From assembly GCA_007134695.1 (NCBI GenBank), contig SLKI01000008.1:62001-126000 (forward strand): a stretch of DNA of 64,000 nucleotides, read 5' to 3'. The position numbers were made by a program, and so were the translations under genes. Source of the stretch: Balneolaceae bacterium (GTDB lineage Bacteria > Bacteroidota > Rhodothermia > Balneolales > Balneolaceae). The notes below the pieces were generated by a model. The model was not told where the DNA came from. It ran no database searches and worked only from the letters and a program-made list of their open reading frames with translations. Shown here piece by piece: positions 45-25,210 of the stretch. How positions within the stretch are numbered: position 1 is the first letter of the stretch; every line of letters starts with the position of its first letter.

Positions 45-1223
45 ATGAATCATCAATCCGAATCAATAAAAAAGCGAGCCGACCGGGTTGCCGATGCGGT
101 CGAAAAGTGGCTGAGCCCGGGTAACACCGAGCTGGCCGCTGCAATCGACCGGACGGTGGAGGAGAAGTTGTTCAGCCGCCAGGATATTGAGTTTCAGTTG
201 CGGGCCCTCAGGCAAACCCTCACGCGCAGTGAGTTGAGGCGGTGGGTAGGAGAGCGGCAACCGGGAAGCGGGGAAGCTTTCGCCGGTGGGAAGGCATCCA
301 CCGTTGAAAAAAGTTCTGCGGGTGAAAAAGATTTCGCCGGTCAGGAACACTCCGAAGGCGGGAAAGCCCTCTGCCTGCACGCCGGGAACCTGCCTCTTGT
401 CGGGGTTCAGGACCTGCTCGCCGTTGCCCTTTCCGGGTATCATTATACGGGAAAAGTCTCCCGTAAAGATCCCTGGCTGCTCCCCACACTTATCGACAAG
501 CTCCGGGAGGAGGAGGTGCTCTCCCGGCCCGAAGTGTCGGCAGATCTGCAAGAGTTGAGCGGTGCTGAAGCCGACCGGGTGCTGTTTGCCGGTTCGGGAC
601 GCTCCGTGGAGAGGGTTAGAGATGAGATTAAGAGGCTCGGACTGGCTCGAGGCGGAGCAAGATTTCTGGTTCGTACCGCCCACTATTCGATGGCAGTGAT
701 CCGATCGGACTCACCCGTTACGATCAACAGCCTGATGGAATCTGTACTCCGGTTTGGAGGAAAGGGGTGCCGGTCGGTTGCCGTCGTGTTCGCCCCGTTC
801 GGGCTCAACTCCGGGGTTTGCGACCTGACCGACTACGCAGAAGCGTTTTGGGTGAAAAATCCGCAGCACGATCAGCCTCCGGCGTCACTGCGATATCGAT
901 ATGCCTACAACAAGGCGGCGGAACATTGTCAGATCTGGCTGGAGGATTTCCTGTTTGAGGAAACCCGGATGAGGCCGGAGGAGTCGTTTGTTCTTCACTG
1001 GCTGCAGGGAGGGATCGATGAGGCGGTGGAATTTATCCAGGAATTTGGAGGCGGCTTGCAAACGCTCTATCTGGACGATCCGTTGATGGAGGAGAATGCC
1101 GGCGACATTGTCGTCCCGGGTTTAACGATTCGTTCGGAACCGCTTAAACGTGCCCATCAGCCGCCCGTAGACTGGCAACCGGACGGGGTGGACCCGCTGG
1201 AGTGGCTGCTCACCGAAGTATAG
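45..1223 (+). CDS. LuxC-family acyl-CoA reductase
   Basis: Probable NADPH-dependent acyl-CoA reductase of the LuxC type, part of the aldehyde dehydrogenase superfamily, reducing fatty acyl-CoA or acyl-enzyme to aldehyde. The central motif AGNLPLVGVQDLLAVALSG followed by GKVSRKDPWLLPTL (about residues 114-148) matches the nucleotide-binding part of the Bacteroidetes form, where similar proteins read HNIPLVGFHDFLSVL. VLFAGSGRS (about 179-187) and VVFAPFGLNSG (about 249-259) fit the Rossmann and catalytic-side segments. At 392 aa it is slightly longer than usual because of a Gly/Ala/Glu/Lys-rich low-complexity stretch at about residues 73-108. It starts 6 bp after the preceding stop, so it is probably co-transcribed with that gene. 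No luciferase genes are present, so light production is not implied. The family is clear; the physiological substrate is not. Confidence 0.75.
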   Translation: MNHQSESIKKRADRVADAVEKWLSPGNTELAAAIDRTVEEKLFSRQDIEFQLRALRQTLTRSELRRWVGERQPGSGEAFAGGKASTVEKSSAGEKDFAGQEHSEGGKALCLHAGNLPLVGVQDLLAVALSGYHYTGKVSRKDPWLLPTLIDKLREEEVLSRPEVSADLQELSGAEADRVLFAGSGRSVERVRDEIKRLGLARGGARFLVRTAHYSMAVIRSDSPVTINSLMESVLRFGGKGCRSVAVVFAPFGLNSGVCDLTDYAEAFWVKNPQHDQPPASLRYRYAYNKAAEHCQIWLEDFLFEETRMRPEESFVLHWLQGGIDEAVEFIQEFGGGLQTLYLDDPLMEENAGDIVVPGLTIRSEPLKRAHQPPVDWQPDGVDPLEWLLTEV

Positions 1224-1310
1224 GGTGTTAAATTCCGGTAAAGTGCGGCGAAATCGAGCAGAAATTTTGTTACCTTTTCGCCTTGCAAAACAGGAACGCA
1301 ACCCGCATTT

Positions 1311-3902
1311 ATGCACGCTTACAACCCCTCGAAGATCGAGAAGAAATGGCAATCCTACTGGCTGGAAAACAAAACCTTCCGGACTCCGGAGGATGAGGAG
1401 AAACCGAAGTATTACGTTCTGGATATGTTTCCCTATCCGAGCGGCGACGGCCTTCATGTAGGGCACCCGGAGGGATATACGGCAACCGACATCGTTGCCC
1501 GCTACAAGCGGATGAACGGCTACAACGTACTGCATCCGATCGGGTGGGATGCGTTCGGCCTGCCTGCCGAGCAGTATGCGATCCGAACCGGAACCCACCC
1601 GAAGCAGACGACGGAGCGAAACATCGGCCGTTTCAGGGAGCAGCTTCAGATGCTCGGGTTTTCTTACGACTGGGACCGGGAGGTCAACACCACCGATCCC
1701 GATTACTACAGGTGGACTCAATGGATTTTTTTGAAACTCTATGAGATGGGGCTGGCCTACCAGGATGAGGTGCCGGTCAACTGGTGCCCCGATCTCGGGA
1801 CCGTTCTCTCCAACGAAGAGGTGATCGACGGCAAGAGCGAAGTGGGAGGCTTTCCTGTCGTTCGAAAGCCGATGCGGCAATGGATGCTCCGCATTACCGA
1901 ATATGCCGACCGGCTGCTTGAAGACCTGGAGGATCTTGACTGGCCCGAATCGACCAAAGAGATGCAGCGCAACTGGATCGGCCGCTCGATCGGAGCCGAT
2001 ATCGAATTTGAGATCAAGGGGCATGACGACTCTCTTCGGGTCTTTACCACACGCCCCGATACACTTTTCGGAGCCACCTACATGGTGCTTGCACCGGAAC
2101 ATCATCTGGTCGAAGAACTTACGACGAACGAACAGCGTGATGATGTCGAAGCCTACAGGGAGGAAGCGGCCAAAAAATCGGATATCGAACGACAGGAGAT
2201 GAACAAGGAGAAAACCGGCGTTTTTACCGGTTCGTATGCGATTAATCCTGCAAGTGGAGAGGAGATTCAGATCTGGGTTGCCGATTATGTTTTGGCTCAC
2301 TACGGAACTGGTGCGATTATGGCGGTACCGGGTGAGGATGAACGGGATTGGGAGTTTGCCGAAAAATATGGCTTGCCGATTATCCGGACGGTGGAGCCGC
2401 CCGAAGATTTTGATGGTAAAGCGTGGACCGGAGAGGGCAAGTCGATCAACAGCGGCTTTCTCGACGGCCTTGAAATCGAAGAGGCCAAATTAAAGATGAT
2501 CGAGTGGCTCGAGGAGCAGGGAAAAGGTCAAAAGAGCGTCAACTATAAACTGCGCGACTGGCTCTTCTCCCGGCAGCGCTACTGGGGCGAACCGTTTCCG
2601 ATTGTTCATGTCGACGGAGTGCCCAAACCGCTCCCGGAAGATGTTCTGCCGGTTACCCTGCCGGAGGTGGACGATTTCAAGCCAACCCGGACCGGGGAGC
2701 CTCCGCTTGCCAGGGCGAAGGAGTGGGTTGAGACCACCGACCCGGAAAGCGGTAAGCCGGCACTGCGCGAGACCAACACGATGCCGCAGTGGGCCGGCTC
2801 CTGCTGGTACTACCTGCGCTATATCAGCCCCGAATTTGATGGAGGCCCGGTCGAGAAAAAGAAGGAGAACTACTGGATGCCGGTCGACCTCTATGTCGGC
2901 GGATCGGAACATTCGGTGCTTCATCTGCTATATGCACGATTCTGGCACAAGGTGCTCTTCGACTGCGGTGTCGTATCTACCGATGAACCGTTCCAGAAGC
3001 TGGTTCACCAGGGGATGATCCTGGGGGAGATGGAGTATACGGCCTGGCGTCGGGGAGGAGAGTATCTGGCCCCGGACAGCCCCAAAATCGAAGAGGAGGG
3101 TGTCGAACGGGTACGACTCTCCGAGACTGACGTAGAGAAGCGAGGTGAGAAATTCTACCTGAAGGGAAGTGACGTCGAGGTGGAGGCGCGTGCTTACAAG
3201 ATGTCGAAGTCGAGAGGCAACGTCATCAATCCGGATGATATCGTCCGGCAGTACGGTGCCGATGCCCTGCGGCTGTATGAAATGTTCATGGGACCGCTCG
3301 AACAGGTCAAGCCCTGGAGCACGCGCGGTGTCGAGGGTGTTTATCGCTTCCTCAACCGTGTGTGGAGGCTGATGATCGATGAGAAGAGCGGGAAACTCCA
3401 TTCTCACCTGTCCGATGAGCAGCCGACCCGCGATCAACTGAAAGCGTTGCACGAAGCGATCAAGAAAGTAACCGAAGATATCGATGAGATGCGGTTTAAT
3501 ACGGCGATCTCTGCTCTGATGGTATTTGTTAACGAAGCAAACCAGTGGGAGAATCTGCCGAAGGAGGTGCTTGAATCGTTTCTGCTGATTCTCTCTCCAT
3601 TCGCTCCGCATCTGGCCGAAGAGCTCTGGAGCCGTCTCGGCCATGAAAAATCACTGGCGTATGAGCTGTGGCCGAAAGCTGAAGAGGATTACCTGAAGTC
3701 CGAGACGGTGATGTACCCCGTCCAGGTCAACGGAAAAGTAAGAGGGGAGATCCATGTCGATGCTGATAAGGCGAAACAAAAGGAGCTCGTCCTGGAAGCG
3801 GCGAAGGCGGAAAAGAATGTCAGCCGCTACCTGGAGAGCGGCGAACTGGTCAAGGAGATCTTTGTCCCCGGCAAGATCGTCAACCTGGTGGTGAAAGAGT
3901 AG
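1311..3902 (+). CDS. leuS: Leucyl-tRNA synthetase
   Basis: Charges tRNA(Leu) with leucine in the cytoplasm; class Ia synthetase. The HIGH-type motif HVGH is at residues 49-52, and KMSKS at residues 630-634 is followed by RGNVINPDD. Between them is the CP1 editing domain (about 220-420), including [15 protein letters not shown] and [15 protein letters not shown]. The C-terminus has the anticodon-binding helical domain and the small tRNA-binding end (VNGKVRGEI to the stop). The length of 863 aa is normal for bacterial LeuRS. The ATG start gives the expected N-terminus [14 protein letters not shown]. It lies 87 bp after the acyl-CoA reductase and converges with gltA. Confidence 0.97.
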
Positions 3903-3924
3903 ATGGGTTAACCACGAAACAGGC

Positions 3925-3949
3925 GGGATGGGTCGGCAACCCATTTCCC
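3925..3949. terminator. Possible bidirectional terminator between leuS and gltA
   Basis: A GC-rich stem-loop in the 57-bp gap between two convergent genes: GGGATGGGT pairs with ACCCATTTCCC around a short loop, with a two-base bulge. There is no clear T-tract on either side, so intrinsic termination is uncertain; the convergent position is the main support. Confidence 0.35.
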
Positions 3950-3959
3950 GAAATATCCC

Positions 3960-5129
3960 TTACCGATCCTCAACAGGCGTCCACTCCAGATTTTTCTCTC
4001 CTGTATAGAGTGCACGCGGACGGATCAGCCGGTTGTTTGCCGCCTGTTCGAGAAAATGAGCGGTCCAGCCGGTCACGCGGCTCATAGCAAAGATGCAGGT
4101 ATAGAGATCGGGTTTGATGCCGATCGAGTAGTAGACGGTGGCTGAGAAAAAGTCGACGTTGGGGTCGATATTCTTTTCACTTTTCATCGTTTCGAGGATC
4201 GCTTCGGACCATTCGTACAGCTTCGTATAGCCGGTCTCTTCCGAGAGCGCTTTCGACATCTTGCGAAGGTGGACGGCGCGGGGGTCGAAGGTTTTGTATA
4301 CCCTGTGGCCGAAACCCATGATCTTCTCTTTTTTCTCCAGCTTGTCTTTGATAAAGGATACCGGATCAGCTTCATCACCCTGCTTGTCCAGTTCCAGAAG
4401 CATATTCATCACAGCGGTGTTGGCTCCACCGTGCAGCGGGCCCTTCAGTGCTCCGATCGCTCCGGCTGCCGCCGAATAGATATCCGACTGGGTCGAACAG
4501 ATGGTCCGGCAAGTAAAGGTCGAAGCGTTCATGCCGTGCTCGGCGTGAAGGATCAGGCAGAGATCCATCGTTTTTACAGCCTGTTCGCCCGGCTCCTCGC
4601 CGTTCAGCATATAAAGAAAGTTGTAAGCGGTGCTGCCGCGGTCGATCGGGTCGATCATCTCCTTGCCGTTTCGGACTCGGGCGAACGCAGCAATCACAGC
4701 CGGCATTTTCGCTGTCATGGCGATCGCACGGTTCAGGTTGTCCTGCTCTCCGTCTCCGCTTCCCTCGGGAGCGTAATCGGACAACATGGAGGTAGCTGTC
4801 CTCAACACAGCCATCGGTTCCGCCTCTCTGCTGGTAGACCGGATATACTCTTTCACCGGCCTGGGAAGCGCTCTCTCTGCGGCAAGTTGATTTTTCAGCT
4901 GATCGAGTTCATCCGATGTCGGAAGCCGGTCGTACCAAAGCAGAAACGCTACCTCCTCGAATGAAGCGTGCTCGGCAAGTGTGTCGATATTATAACCGGC
5001 ATAGATCAGCTCACCCTTCTGTCCGTCGATCGAACTCTTTGATGTTGTGAAGGCGGTAATTCCTTCCAGACCCCGATTCAAATGCGGGTAATCCTGAGTA
5101 TCGATATCCTCTAAATTCTGCTTGTTCAT
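3960..5129 (-). CDS. gltA: Citrate synthase
   Basis: Condenses acetyl-CoA and oxaloacetate to citrate, the entry step of the TCA cycle. The catalytic triad of the family is visible: His233 in GPLHGGAN, His275 in GFGHRVYK and Asp326 in NVDFFSATVY. The HAEHGMNASTF motif is at 195-205. The 389-aa length fits the short citrate synthase type found in Gram-positives and many FCB bacteria, without the longer N-terminal domain of the E. coli enzyme. The start is the ATG giving MNKQNLEDID. It is on the minus strand, 126 bp downstream of mazG, and converges with leuS. A 2-methylcitrate synthase activity cannot be excluded from sequence alone. Confidence 0.95.
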   Translation of the reverse strand: MNKQNLEDIDTQDYPHLNRGLEGITAFTTSKSSIDGQKGELIYAGYNIDTLAEHASFEEVAFLLWYDRLPTSDELDQLKNQLAAERALPRPVKEYIRSTSREAEPMAVLRTATSMLSDYAPEGSGDGEQDNLNRAIAMTAKMPAVIAAFARVRNGKEMIDPIDRGSTAYNFLYMLNGEEPGEQAVKTMDLCLILHAEHGMNASTFTCRTICSTQSDIYSAAAGAIGALKGPLHGGANTAVMNMLLELDKQGDEADPVSFIKDKLEKKEKIMGFGHRVYKTFDPRAVHLRKMSKALSEETGYTKLYEWSEAILETMKSEKNIDPNVDFFSATVYYSIGIKPDLYTCIFAMSRVTGWTAHFLEQAANNRLIRPRALYTGEKNLEWTPVEDR

Positions 5130-22111: not shown

Positions 22112-22648
22112 TTACCAGAAATGGTCACCGTAAGGGTCCGGTTTCCTGCTCTCATCTTTTTCATCCTCTGTTGCCGAGCTGCCGTTTTCCACCCCATCTT
22201 TTTTGATTGAATCGGAAGTTTCGGGTGTAGGGGTAGACGAAGTGTCTTTTGGTTTAGCATTTTTGGCAACTGGCGTCTCTACAACAGCTTTTTCGTGACG
22301 GTTATCCGCCAAGTGGTTAACGGCAGCTTCAAATTGGCAATAAGCCCCCTCTTCGATTTCAACTGAATGGGAACTGATCGAACCATACAGATAAGCTGTA
22401 CTGAAGATACGGGCTTTTTTTTCAACCCATACATTACCTTCGATACGACCGTAAAGTACCAAATCTCTCGCTTTGACATTCCCTCTGATTTCTGCGTCCT
22501 GATCGATGACCAGTTTGCCGTCGCATTCGACGTTCAGCGCCACTTCTCCTGAGATCCGGCTGCTGGACGGCAGATAGAGTTTATTTTCCCGGATTCGGGT
22601 GCCTTTTGCAAGCAGAGTAACTGCGTTCTGCCTCTCCAATTTCTTCAT
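22112..22648 (-). CDS. Bactofilin-type polymer-forming cytoskeletal protein
   Basis: A self-assembling beta-helical filament protein that positions cell-shape or envelope machinery at the membrane. The bactofilin core is at about residues 30-110, with the six-residue strand rhythm visible in SGEVALNVECDGKLVID, IRGNVKARDLVLYGRIEGNVW and YLYGSISSHSVEIEEGAYCQF. It is flanked by a short N-terminal segment and a long, probably disordered tail rich in Glu, Lys, Pro and Thr (about 120-178). It sits 101 bp downstream of the actin-like ATPase gene on the same strand, so co-transcription and joint function are likely but unproven. M23 peptidase genes, frequent partners of bactofilins, are not adjacent here. 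Confidence 0.9.
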   Translation of the reverse strand: MKKLERQNAVTLLAKGTRIRENKLYLPSSSRISGEVALNVECDGKLVIDQDAEIRGNVKARDLVLYGRIEGNVWVEKKARIFSTAYLYGSISSHSVEIEEGAYCQFEAAVNHLADNRHEKAVVETPVAKNAKPKDTSSTPTPETSDSIKKDGVENGSSATEDEKDESRKPDPYGDHFW

Positions 22649-22749: not shown

Positions 22750-23778
22750 TCAGATTCCCGCACTGGAATCAATCACGCTGACGGTTGTATTGGCATTGCC
22801 GATATCGATACCGACAGCTGCTGCAGCAGAACCACCCTTGTTACGGGAACGGATGCAATAGCCCCGGCTAGTAACCGTGGCTGGATTTTCAGCCACTTCA
22901 ATATTGACAAAACTGTCGAACTCTCTTCGGAAACTGTCGACCAGTTCCGGATAATTTGCACCCCCGCCAATCAACAATATGGTATTGGCACGATCAAAAT
23001 CGTCGTCACTCCAGGTATTTCTCATAAGGGGAGAGATCACATCCTCATAGTAATGAGCCAGTGCCTGCCGCCGAATCTCTGTAAGATCGATACGCTTTCG
23101 GTTGAGAATTATATTACCGGCCTGAAATGCCGTATCGAATTGCTGCTCCGTGCGCAAACCTACATAATAATCCCGCATCAGCCGCTTCATGGCCCAATCG
23201 ATTGCATAGCGCAGTCCGTTTCCGGAAGCTTCGGTTCGCTGAATAACTCCTTTGTCGGTACTAAGGCCGATTTCCGTCGTACCGTAACCCATACTCACCA
23301 TAAAGAAATTTCCGGTCCGCTGATCTTCGCCGCTTCGCATGGCAATAATACCGCCGATCAATTCCGGAATCACTTCGACCCGGTTTACCGAGATCGGCTG
23401 AACCAGATGATCACTGCCGCCGAAGGGCCGGGTATCGTATGTGACAGATTCTATGCTGTTGAAAAACTCAACTGCGGGTTTTTTGTTGATATTGATCGTC
23501 GAGTATGGGAAACCGGTTGTAATAACCATCGGTTCCTTTACAAAGTTTGATGCGGTCAACAGACTTGCTTTGGCCAGCAGTTGATAGTCGAGCTCATCAA
23601 CAGAACTGTTGATCGCTTTGTGAGGATTTTTACCCTCTACCAGGGCCAGGTCCCCGATAATGTAATCTTCCTCACCTTCACGGATCTTCATACCGGTAAG
23701 TTGATCACGTGAAACGTTCTGTAGTTCGGATCCCTGACTCTGGATCAGGCTGGGGAAAGTCGTCGTTCGGATTCGCAT
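22750..23778 (-). CDS. Actin-like ATPase with circularly permuted motif order
   Basis: A member of the ParM/Alp/Ta0583-like actin family by pattern: FPSLIQSQG (8-16), EEDYIIGDLALVEGKNP (36-52), MVITTGFPYSTI (84-95), VIPELIGGIIA (136-146), phosphate-2-like VSMGYGTTEIGL (161-172), adenosine motif ILLIGGGANYPELV (267-280) and the usual C-terminal ENPATVTSRGY (297-307). The canonical first element is missing at the N-terminus. Instead it is at the end: after the linker NKGGSAAAA (313-321) comes VGIDIGNANTTVSVID (322-337), a perfect phosphate-1 motif with Asp325. Upstream codons reach a stop 12 codons before the ATG without encoding such a motif, so it is not a mis-set start. The phosphate-2 Asp appears replaced by Ser162. 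The 342-aa length equals a normal family member. Bactofilin follows. Confidence 0.85.
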   Translation of the reverse strand: MRIRTTTFPSLIQSQGSELQNVSRDQLTGMKIREGEEDYIIGDLALVEGKNPHKAINSSVDELDYQLLAKASLLTASNFVKEPMVITTGFPYSTININKKPAVEFFNSIESVTYDTRPFGGSDHLVQPISVNRVEVIPELIGGIIAMRSGEDQRTGNFFMVSMGYGTTEIGLSTDKGVIQRTEASGNGLRYAIDWAMKRLMRDYYVGLRTEQQFDTAFQAGNIILNRKRIDLTEIRRQALAHYYEDVISPLMRNTWSDDDFDRANTILLIGGGANYPELVDSFRREFDSFVNIEVAENPATVTSRGYCIRSRNKGGSAAAAVGIDIGNANTTVSVIDSSAGI

Positions 23779-23825
23779 GGCTCGTTTTCGTACGGTATTA
23801 CAGTTAGTCAGTCAATTTGCATGGT

Positions 23826-24016: not shown

Positions 24017-25210
24017 TCAGTTCGAACTATTTACTTGTGAATCTGATCCTTGCCGTAAAAACCTGTGGATGATCCTGTCAGCCAGGTAAACGGATCCTCC
24101 CAGAAGCGTTAAAAAGAGGAGGCTTAGTTGTGGCTGCCAGATAACCAGGCCTCCGATAGTACCGAGCAGAGCTCCCAGGTATTGAATATATTTCAGCTGT
24201 TCGTTAACTGCCCGAAGGATCATCTTTTCCAGGTTACCGTGATCAAACTGCATAAGACTTTGTTTAACGATCGAATGTACATCCAGACGGTTGATCAGTC
24301 GATTGAGCAGAGCCAGAAGCTGACGATCGATCTCCTCACCATGTCTGTGCAACTCTTCCGGCAGAGTATCGAGTGTCGAGTCGAGATGATAGAGCTCCTT
24401 CTCAATGATGGAAGGTAATCGGTCCAACGCCTGTCCAACCAGATCTGCCAGTTCGACTCCCCGAATCATGCTGTAGGTTTTAAAAGCGGTTCGTTCAACA
24501 ATTCGGTTTTCGAGAGCAAGATCAATTTCTTCAGCCAATTTCTTAGAAAAGGTGCTTCGAAATTGACGATTACCAAGTATTGTTTCGGTATAATCGATGA
24601 GCCATCGTTTCAGATCCCGTCGAAATTCGGGCTGTTCCACTATTTGTCCGATTCTGACAGCACCATACTCTCTGTACCGTGTAATCATACCGGAGTCACG
24701 GAGATTTGATTTGATAATTTCCGGATTGATCAGATCCTCCGATACGGCTGTAGCAAGTCTTCGGGCTACACGCTCTTTTTGTGCTGGCAGTAATCCCTGA
24801 CCGAGGATCGGACGTTTCTCCGATGGCCGGAACAGCATCGTAATGGCAAGCCAGTTGGTCAGAAAACCGATCAGCCCGCTCACCGAGACAATTCGCAATA
24901 AACCGTCGAGAGGATAGGAATTTCCGATTATCAAGATTCGGCTGTCGTTGAAATCCCAAAAAAATGAAGCGAGAAATGAGAAAGCCAGAACCCAGGGAAG
25001 CATTGATAGAAGGGTCAATCCCAAACTGTACCTGCGTGAGGGAGCAGGTTCGGTCGAACTATCCCTTCTGTTTGCTGTTATTAAAGGATCGGCCGGTTGA
25101 TATTTCCGGATCAATCTTAAAAATTTACGTATAAAAAGGCCGGTTACACGTAAATTTTTATTTGCAGCGCTCGAATTGCCGCTTCCTGAACTTTGTTGTT
25201 TTGTACTCAT
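24017..25210 (-). CDS. DUF445 family membrane protein
   Basis: A membrane protein of the DUF445 (YjiN/YheB-like) family of unknown function. After a hydrophilic N-terminus (about 65 residues) there are two membrane segments (about 66-90 and 108-128). They are followed by the family signature IGFLTNWLAITMLFRPSEKRP and GLLPAQKERVARRLATAVSEDL. A long helical, probably coiled-coil region covers about 170-340 (domain repeats of LADLVGQALDRLP and KQSLMQFDHG type). A final hydrophobic hairpin (about 345-385) completes it. The 397-aa length is normal. It lies 149 bp after ybeY on the same strand. Confidence 0.88.
   Translation of the reverse strand: MSTKQQSSGSGNSSAANKNLRVTGLFIRKFLRLIRKYQPADPLITANRRDSSTEPAPSRRYSLGLTLLSMLPWVLAFSFLASFFWDFNDSRILIIGNSYPLDGLLRIVSVSGLIGFLTNWLAITMLFRPSEKRPILGQGLLPAQKERVARRLATAVSEDLINPEIIKSNLRDSGMITRYREYGAVRIGQIVEQPEFRRDLKRWLIDYTETILGNRQFRSTFSKKLAEEIDLALENRIVERTAFKTYSMIRGVELADLVGQALDRLPSIIEKELYHLDSTLDTLPEELHRHGEEIDRQLLALLNRLINRLDVHSIVKQSLMQFDHGNLEKMILRAVNEQLKYIQYLGALLGTIGGLVIWQPQLSLLFLTLLGGSVYLADRIIHRFLRQGSDSQVNSSN

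Follow-up and report, generated by a model that had tools for sequence, protein, structure and literature searches.

Actin is among the best-studied protein folds, and the closest described systems to the protein analysed here are the plasmid actins of the ParM/Alp type (pCBH ParM, Dh-cParM1, Alp7A), with which it shares the ALP_N domain, the adenosine and phosphate-1 motifs, its size and, as far as low-confidence models indicate, the actin fold. It is distinguished from them by a permuted chain and a replaced phosphate-2 aspartate throughout its family, the absence of ParR and parC, a bactofilin neighbour and an exclusively chromosomal location. MreB is likewise a member of the actin superfamily, with a phosphate-1 motif (DLGTANT) closely resembling the DIGNANT of our protein; in MreB, however, this motif is N-terminal, and the host possesses its own MreB besides. 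Among the archaeal actins, Ta0583 is recovered as a structure match and Volactin as a weak match after rotation of the sequence, but the motif order of both is normal. To our knowledge, no direct genetic tie between an actin and a bactofilin has been known, the two polymer systems having been studied apart. The nearest parallel to a chromosomal pair is FcmB/FcmC of Nostoc, in which a ParM-derived chromosomal actin is encoded upstream of a partner gene and FcmB provides a precedent for a role in cell shape separate from that of MreB; FcmC is, however, annotated as ParR-like and not as a bactofilin, and a permutation has not been reported (PMC12645912). Equally, bactofilins have been found in conserved operons with a functional partner, as in the bactofilin-M23 peptidase operons exemplified by BacA-LmdC, where the partner is a cell-wall hydrolase (PMC10945521), whereas the partner of the bactofilin described below is an actin. 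A study of chromosomal ParMs mentions neither a permutation nor a bactofilin (PMC12270681). The earlier note on this DNA knew of no cytoskeletal filament of this kind; likewise, our literature search recovered no published equivalent of permuted actins or bactofilin-actin operons, although this search was restricted to open-licence papers and the absence is thus not proven.

The features of the locus are collected below, with positions given in the window, i.e. the whole stretch of 64,000 nucleotides that was analysed.

Table. Coordinates of the actin-bactofilin locus and its motifs
Feature	Position	Strand	Basis
Circularly permuted actin-like ATPase (supported)	22750..23778	(-)	ORF of 342 aa with ATG start; ALP_N, MreB-like_C, Alp7A_C and ParM matches; homologues
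Phosphate-1 hairpin (beta1-beta2) VGIDIGNANTTVSVID, residues 322-337, relocated to the C-terminus	22768..22815	(-)	Conservation and rotation test
Variable linker from ancestral C-terminus to ancestral N-terminus, residues 312-321, around KGGSAAAA	22816..22845	(-)	Alignment
FPS motif, residues 8-10, start of beta3, 7 residues from the present N-terminus	23749..23757	(-)	ALP_N alignment from profile position 16
E139, catalytic-type Glu	23362..23364	(-)	Invariant in 22/22
Phosphate-2 motif FMVSMGYGTTE, residues 159-169, S162 in place of the usual Asp	23272..23304	(-)	Alignment, n=22
Adenosine motif GGG, residues 271-273	22960..22968	(-)	Invariant in 22/22
In-frame stop upstream of the actin ATG	23812..23814	(-)	Stop-to-stop frame 22753-23811
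Bactofilin, 178 aa, 101 bp downstream of the actin, same strand	22112..22648	(-)	PF04519
Charged low-complexity bactofilin tail ending ...PDPYGDHFW	22115..22336	(-)	Tail comparison
Terminal HFW, proposed actin-docking peptide	22115..22123	(-)	Aromatic-end statistics

In the Pfam search, the window actin matches ALP_N (PF17989) with 32.8 bits (cut-off 26.3) over residues 3-139, followed by pieces of MreB-like_C and Alp7A-like_C, while NCBIfam reports a distant match to ParM that starts at residue 61 and the MreB_Mbl model remains below its cut-off (16.4 versus 27 bits). The native protein covers positions 16-145 of the 148 positions of the ALP_N profile; the first 15 are missing, and VGIDIGNANTTVSVID follows RGYCIRSRNKGGSAAAA near the C-terminal end. 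As the earlier note had observed, no upstream start encodes a phosphate-1 motif: the open frame extends no further than 11 codons upstream of the ATG (353 aa from stop to stop), so that an N-terminal extension with a second phosphate-1 is not possible. A gene for a DUF445 membrane protein (24017-25210) precedes the actin in the same orientation and is not a conserved neighbour elsewhere. A scan for promoters and terminators gave results at chance level.

That the protein is a circularly permuted Alp/ParM-like actin is supported by several lines of sequence comparison. When the last 22 residues are moved to the front, the ALP_N score of the window actin rises from 32.8 to 41.8 bits and the coverage extends to profile positions 1-145, and an Ignavibacteria homologue likewise gains by this rotation, scoring 53.5 instead of 43.4 bits. 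In a truncated-body control, ALP_N scored 34.2 bits without a tail, 34.8-36.5 bits with five shuffled tails and 44.4 bits with the true tail. A PDB sequence search with a profile built from 20 family members pairs the body (profile positions 5-306) with residues 27-344 of the pCBH ParM chain, and the C-terminus with the N-termini of Hsp70 proteins (301-339 to 6-43, 316-339 to 4-27), the latter pairings being weak singly. Equally, the best site of a hairpin profile on the MreB, FtsA and DnaK of the host, where a canonical MreB and the other two proteins are present with normal motif order, is the phosphate-1 motif of each, with weak scores. The ALP_N-type order of phosphate-1, P2 and adenosine motif is not met, as phosphate-1 is C-terminal in the window actin and in all homologues, which bears out the original observation on this protein. 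The motif order is identical in all homologues that were read over their full length, namely 22 aligned loci with identities down to 37% that represent at least seven family-level groups within one phylum, and the N-terminal extension with the real phosphate-1 that would have refuted the permutation occurs in no member. The linker and the chain ends differ in length and sequence across the 22 aligned loci, as expected at the joint and the break of a circular permutation. A sequencing or assembly artefact, or an N-terminus lost by frameshift, can practically be excluded, the independent homologues, including those from single-contig genomes, all being in the same order.

Structure prediction had been proposed as a check. 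Two AlphaFold models, each from an input of four sequences, reached mean pLDDT values of only 55.3 and 56.1; with both models the top 50 Foldseek matches all belong to the actin superfamily (actin/Hsp70/PilM), the best being pCBH ParM (E 9.7e-10 and 1.0e-11), with Ta0583, MreB, Alp7A and Alp12 among the further matches. Both chain ends remain below a pLDDT of 50, so that the models are silent on the location of the moved hairpin and its position within the fold is inferred. The assumption of filament contacts made by the new chain ends found no support in the analyses; the chain is broken in the beta2-beta3 turn, an exposed loop of subdomain 1 in actin.

Homologues are patchily distributed, being present in 24 of 396 genomes of the phylum (12 of 172 genera) and in 8 of 59 near relatives; those records that carry a name are MAGs of Balneolales and Ignavibacteriaceae, and a scan of contigs with window-specific peptides retrieved three loci. 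The search for normally ordered homologues that had been suggested identified none: all 12 ALP_N matches in the 396 phylum genomes are permuted genes, no unpermuted sister exists among them, and all begin at profile position 15-21, so that this phylum, the only one sampled, yielded no Alp with the normal order. In the actin tree, members of one family (f1, f23) appear in two distant places, which suggests an old duplication or transfer. A plasmid or phage origin was ruled out, as plasmids, phages and four viral-contig scans contained no matches.

The relocated motif G-x-D-x-G-N-x-x-T is kept in all 22 aligned members with G323, D325, G327, N328 and T331 invariant, as are E139, the GYG and E169 of phosphate-2 and the GGG of residues 271-273. 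P9 and S10 of the FPS motif are invariant in the family alignment too. E139 presumably corresponds to E148 of ParM and Q137 of actin, judged by its spacing to phosphate-2 and by family knowledge. With phosphate-1, the catalytic-type glutamate and the adenosine GGG retained, ATP binding is expected and appears plausible, although this is an inference without binding data. On the other hand, the phosphate-2 aspartate, which participates in coordinating Mg and water in actin, Hsp70 and ParM, is replaced in 22 of 22 members (19 have Ser, two Asn and one Gly), the position of S162 being aligned with the phosphate-2 Asp of pCBH ParM in the PDB profile search. Hydrolysis would thus probably be slow or altered and filaments would be long-lived, as inferred in the absence of ATPase or polymerisation data. 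While the permutation proposed in the earlier reading is supported, that reading had overlooked this family-wide loss as well as the conserved downstream bactofilin.

The bactofilin of the window (PF04519, 66.1 bits, cut-off 27.9) is not an isolated neighbour. Of 29 actin loci, 22, from seven family-level groups, have a bactofilin gene behind the actin in the same orientation, and for most of these the gap measures between -3 and about 240 bp; some of the 29 loci are near-duplicates within genera. Because actin-carrying genomes contain only 1-4 bactofilin genes, adjacency by chance is estimated at around one in a thousand per genome (assuming about 3,000 genes), and genomes with two actins carry two actin-bactofilin pairs. 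On contig G187:C1, there are two permuted actins (L041, L042), both with a Trp-ended bactofilin behind them. Actin and bactofilin need not be paired, since seven loci from two genera (L029, L030, L031 and L081 in g19; L035, L036 and L082 in g35) have no linked bactofilin; no alternative Trp-ended neighbour was seen at those bactofilin-less loci for which genes were called. In three Ignavibacteria-type loci (L038, L039, L079), a TPR gene is inserted between actin and bactofilin. The order there is actin, TPR, bactofilin, small AtpI-like membrane proteins and an ATP synthase subunit a-like gene (names assigned by eye), and the bactofilin is the only one in each of these genomes. Most linked bactofilins, that of the window included, lack the MF-type N-terminal start of the unlinked ones in the same genomes. 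As linked proteins are located on long branches with weak placements in the bactofilin tree, a single origin is not claimed.

Linked bactofilins diverge strongly, yet have an aromatic end in common. Trp is the last residue in 15 of 22 linked bactofilins versus 1 of 68 controls, i.e. bactofilins that are unlinked or belong to relatives lacking the actin (Fisher p 5e-11), and an aromatic residue at or beside the C-terminal end occurs in 19 of 22 versus 2 of 68 (Fisher p about 2e-14); the p-values are indicative only, given the relatedness of the sequences and two duplicates among the controls. The ends observed are HFW, RFW, SLW, NIW, VAW, IEW, IDW/VDW, KLW, RLW, LLF/LIF/LFF and PWI, and the three linked bactofilins without an aromatic end are the Ignavibacteria-type copies beside the ATP-synthase-like operon. 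The sole Trp-ended control (L166, G055:C222, ORF 930-1475(-)), which ends in SHFW, stems from a genome with a non-adjacent actin and is possibly a further partner. A natural deletion is provided by genome G005, which shares its genus with three carriers: the syntenic site, flanked on either side by sequence of about 84% identity, contains no actin, while the bactofilin is kept with about 85% nucleotide identity (L164, G005:C4:154300-162500, near 3806-4352). Its last codon is AGG (Arg) versus TGG (Trp) in G024. The apparent tracking of actin loss by this Trp-to-Arg exchange may be considered suggestive but not proof, as it is one case in a fast-evolving tail.

Could the protein be a permuted but otherwise ordinary chromosomal ParM for DNA segregation, with the bactofilin a mere neighbour? 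Its closest relatives in sequence and fold are indeed ParMs, and chromosomal ParMs exist (PMC12270681), but this explanation remains very unlikely given that no conserved ParR-like or small DNA-binding neighbour gene was found, no iteron or repeat array was detected around the gene, no plasmid or phage member is known in the family and the adjacency to a bactofilin in seven family-level groups is far above chance. A ParMRC partition system as such was rejected, as neither a conserved ParR nor parC repeats or iterons were found beside the gene. A different role of the aromatic tail, namely as a membrane anchor that replaces an N-terminal targeting peptide, with actin and bactofilin merely side by side, would be in line with the MF-type start being present in most unlinked and absent from most linked bactofilins, MFSKQAKS being the known N-terminal membrane-targeting peptide of a bactofilin (PMC12448750). 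This is nevertheless doubtful: several tails end in an acidic context (IEW, IDW), unlike membrane anchors, the Trp is gone where the actin is gone (G005), and members of f12 combine an MF start with a terminal W.

Alternatively, the protein might be a non-polymerising member of the ASKHA proteins, be it a nucleotide-state sensor or a degenerate actin, that regulates the bactofilin polymer. The replacement of the phosphate-2 Asp in all members would fit, and filament contacts could not be assessed; on the other hand, phosphate-1, the Glu, GYG and GGG are strictly conserved and the closest relatives form filaments, which makes also this explanation an unlikely one.

The reading we prefer, to which we assign a probability of roughly 0.6, is that of a permuted actin, encoded on the chromosome and binding ATP, on which a bactofilin scaffold docks with its aromatic tail, the two probably forming an envelope or shape module; polymerisation and binding are inferred. 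The permuted order, which is shown at sequence level, would have arisen most simply once and in an ancestor: a short variable linker connects the former C- and N-termini, and the new opening of the chain lies in the beta2-beta3 turn, such that the phosphate-1 hairpin closes the chain and is predicted to complete the ATP site from the other end, its placement in the fold being inferred. The fast-evolving bactofilin would consist of a polymer core with a flexible charged tail and an aromatic end. The C-terminus of ParR docks on ParM, and in a similar manner the terminal aromatic peptide is proposed to dock on the actin. An actin polymer under nucleotide control and a bactofilin scaffold that needs no nucleotide may thereby each determine where the other lies at the envelope, alongside the normal MreB of the host. 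Organisation of the envelope or of cell shape is probably the role of such a module, as inferred from the known roles of bactofilins (PMC10945521, PMC12448750) and the shape role of FcmB (PMC12645912). The further-reaching proposal, that this is the first naturally permuted actin and that, in one composite cytoskeleton, a C-terminal aromatic peptide ties its ATP-regulated polymer to the beta-helical, nucleotide-independent polymer of a dedicated bactofilin, stands at even odds.

A natural circular permutation in the actin family has not been described in the open-licence literature searched. The permutation is kept across the phylum and the permuted actin is probably functional, which provides a natural test of the chain connections needed by the nucleotide switch and the filament of actin. 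Equally, the linked bactofilin would be the first such genetic tie known to us, with a specific, testable docking peptide as proposed here.
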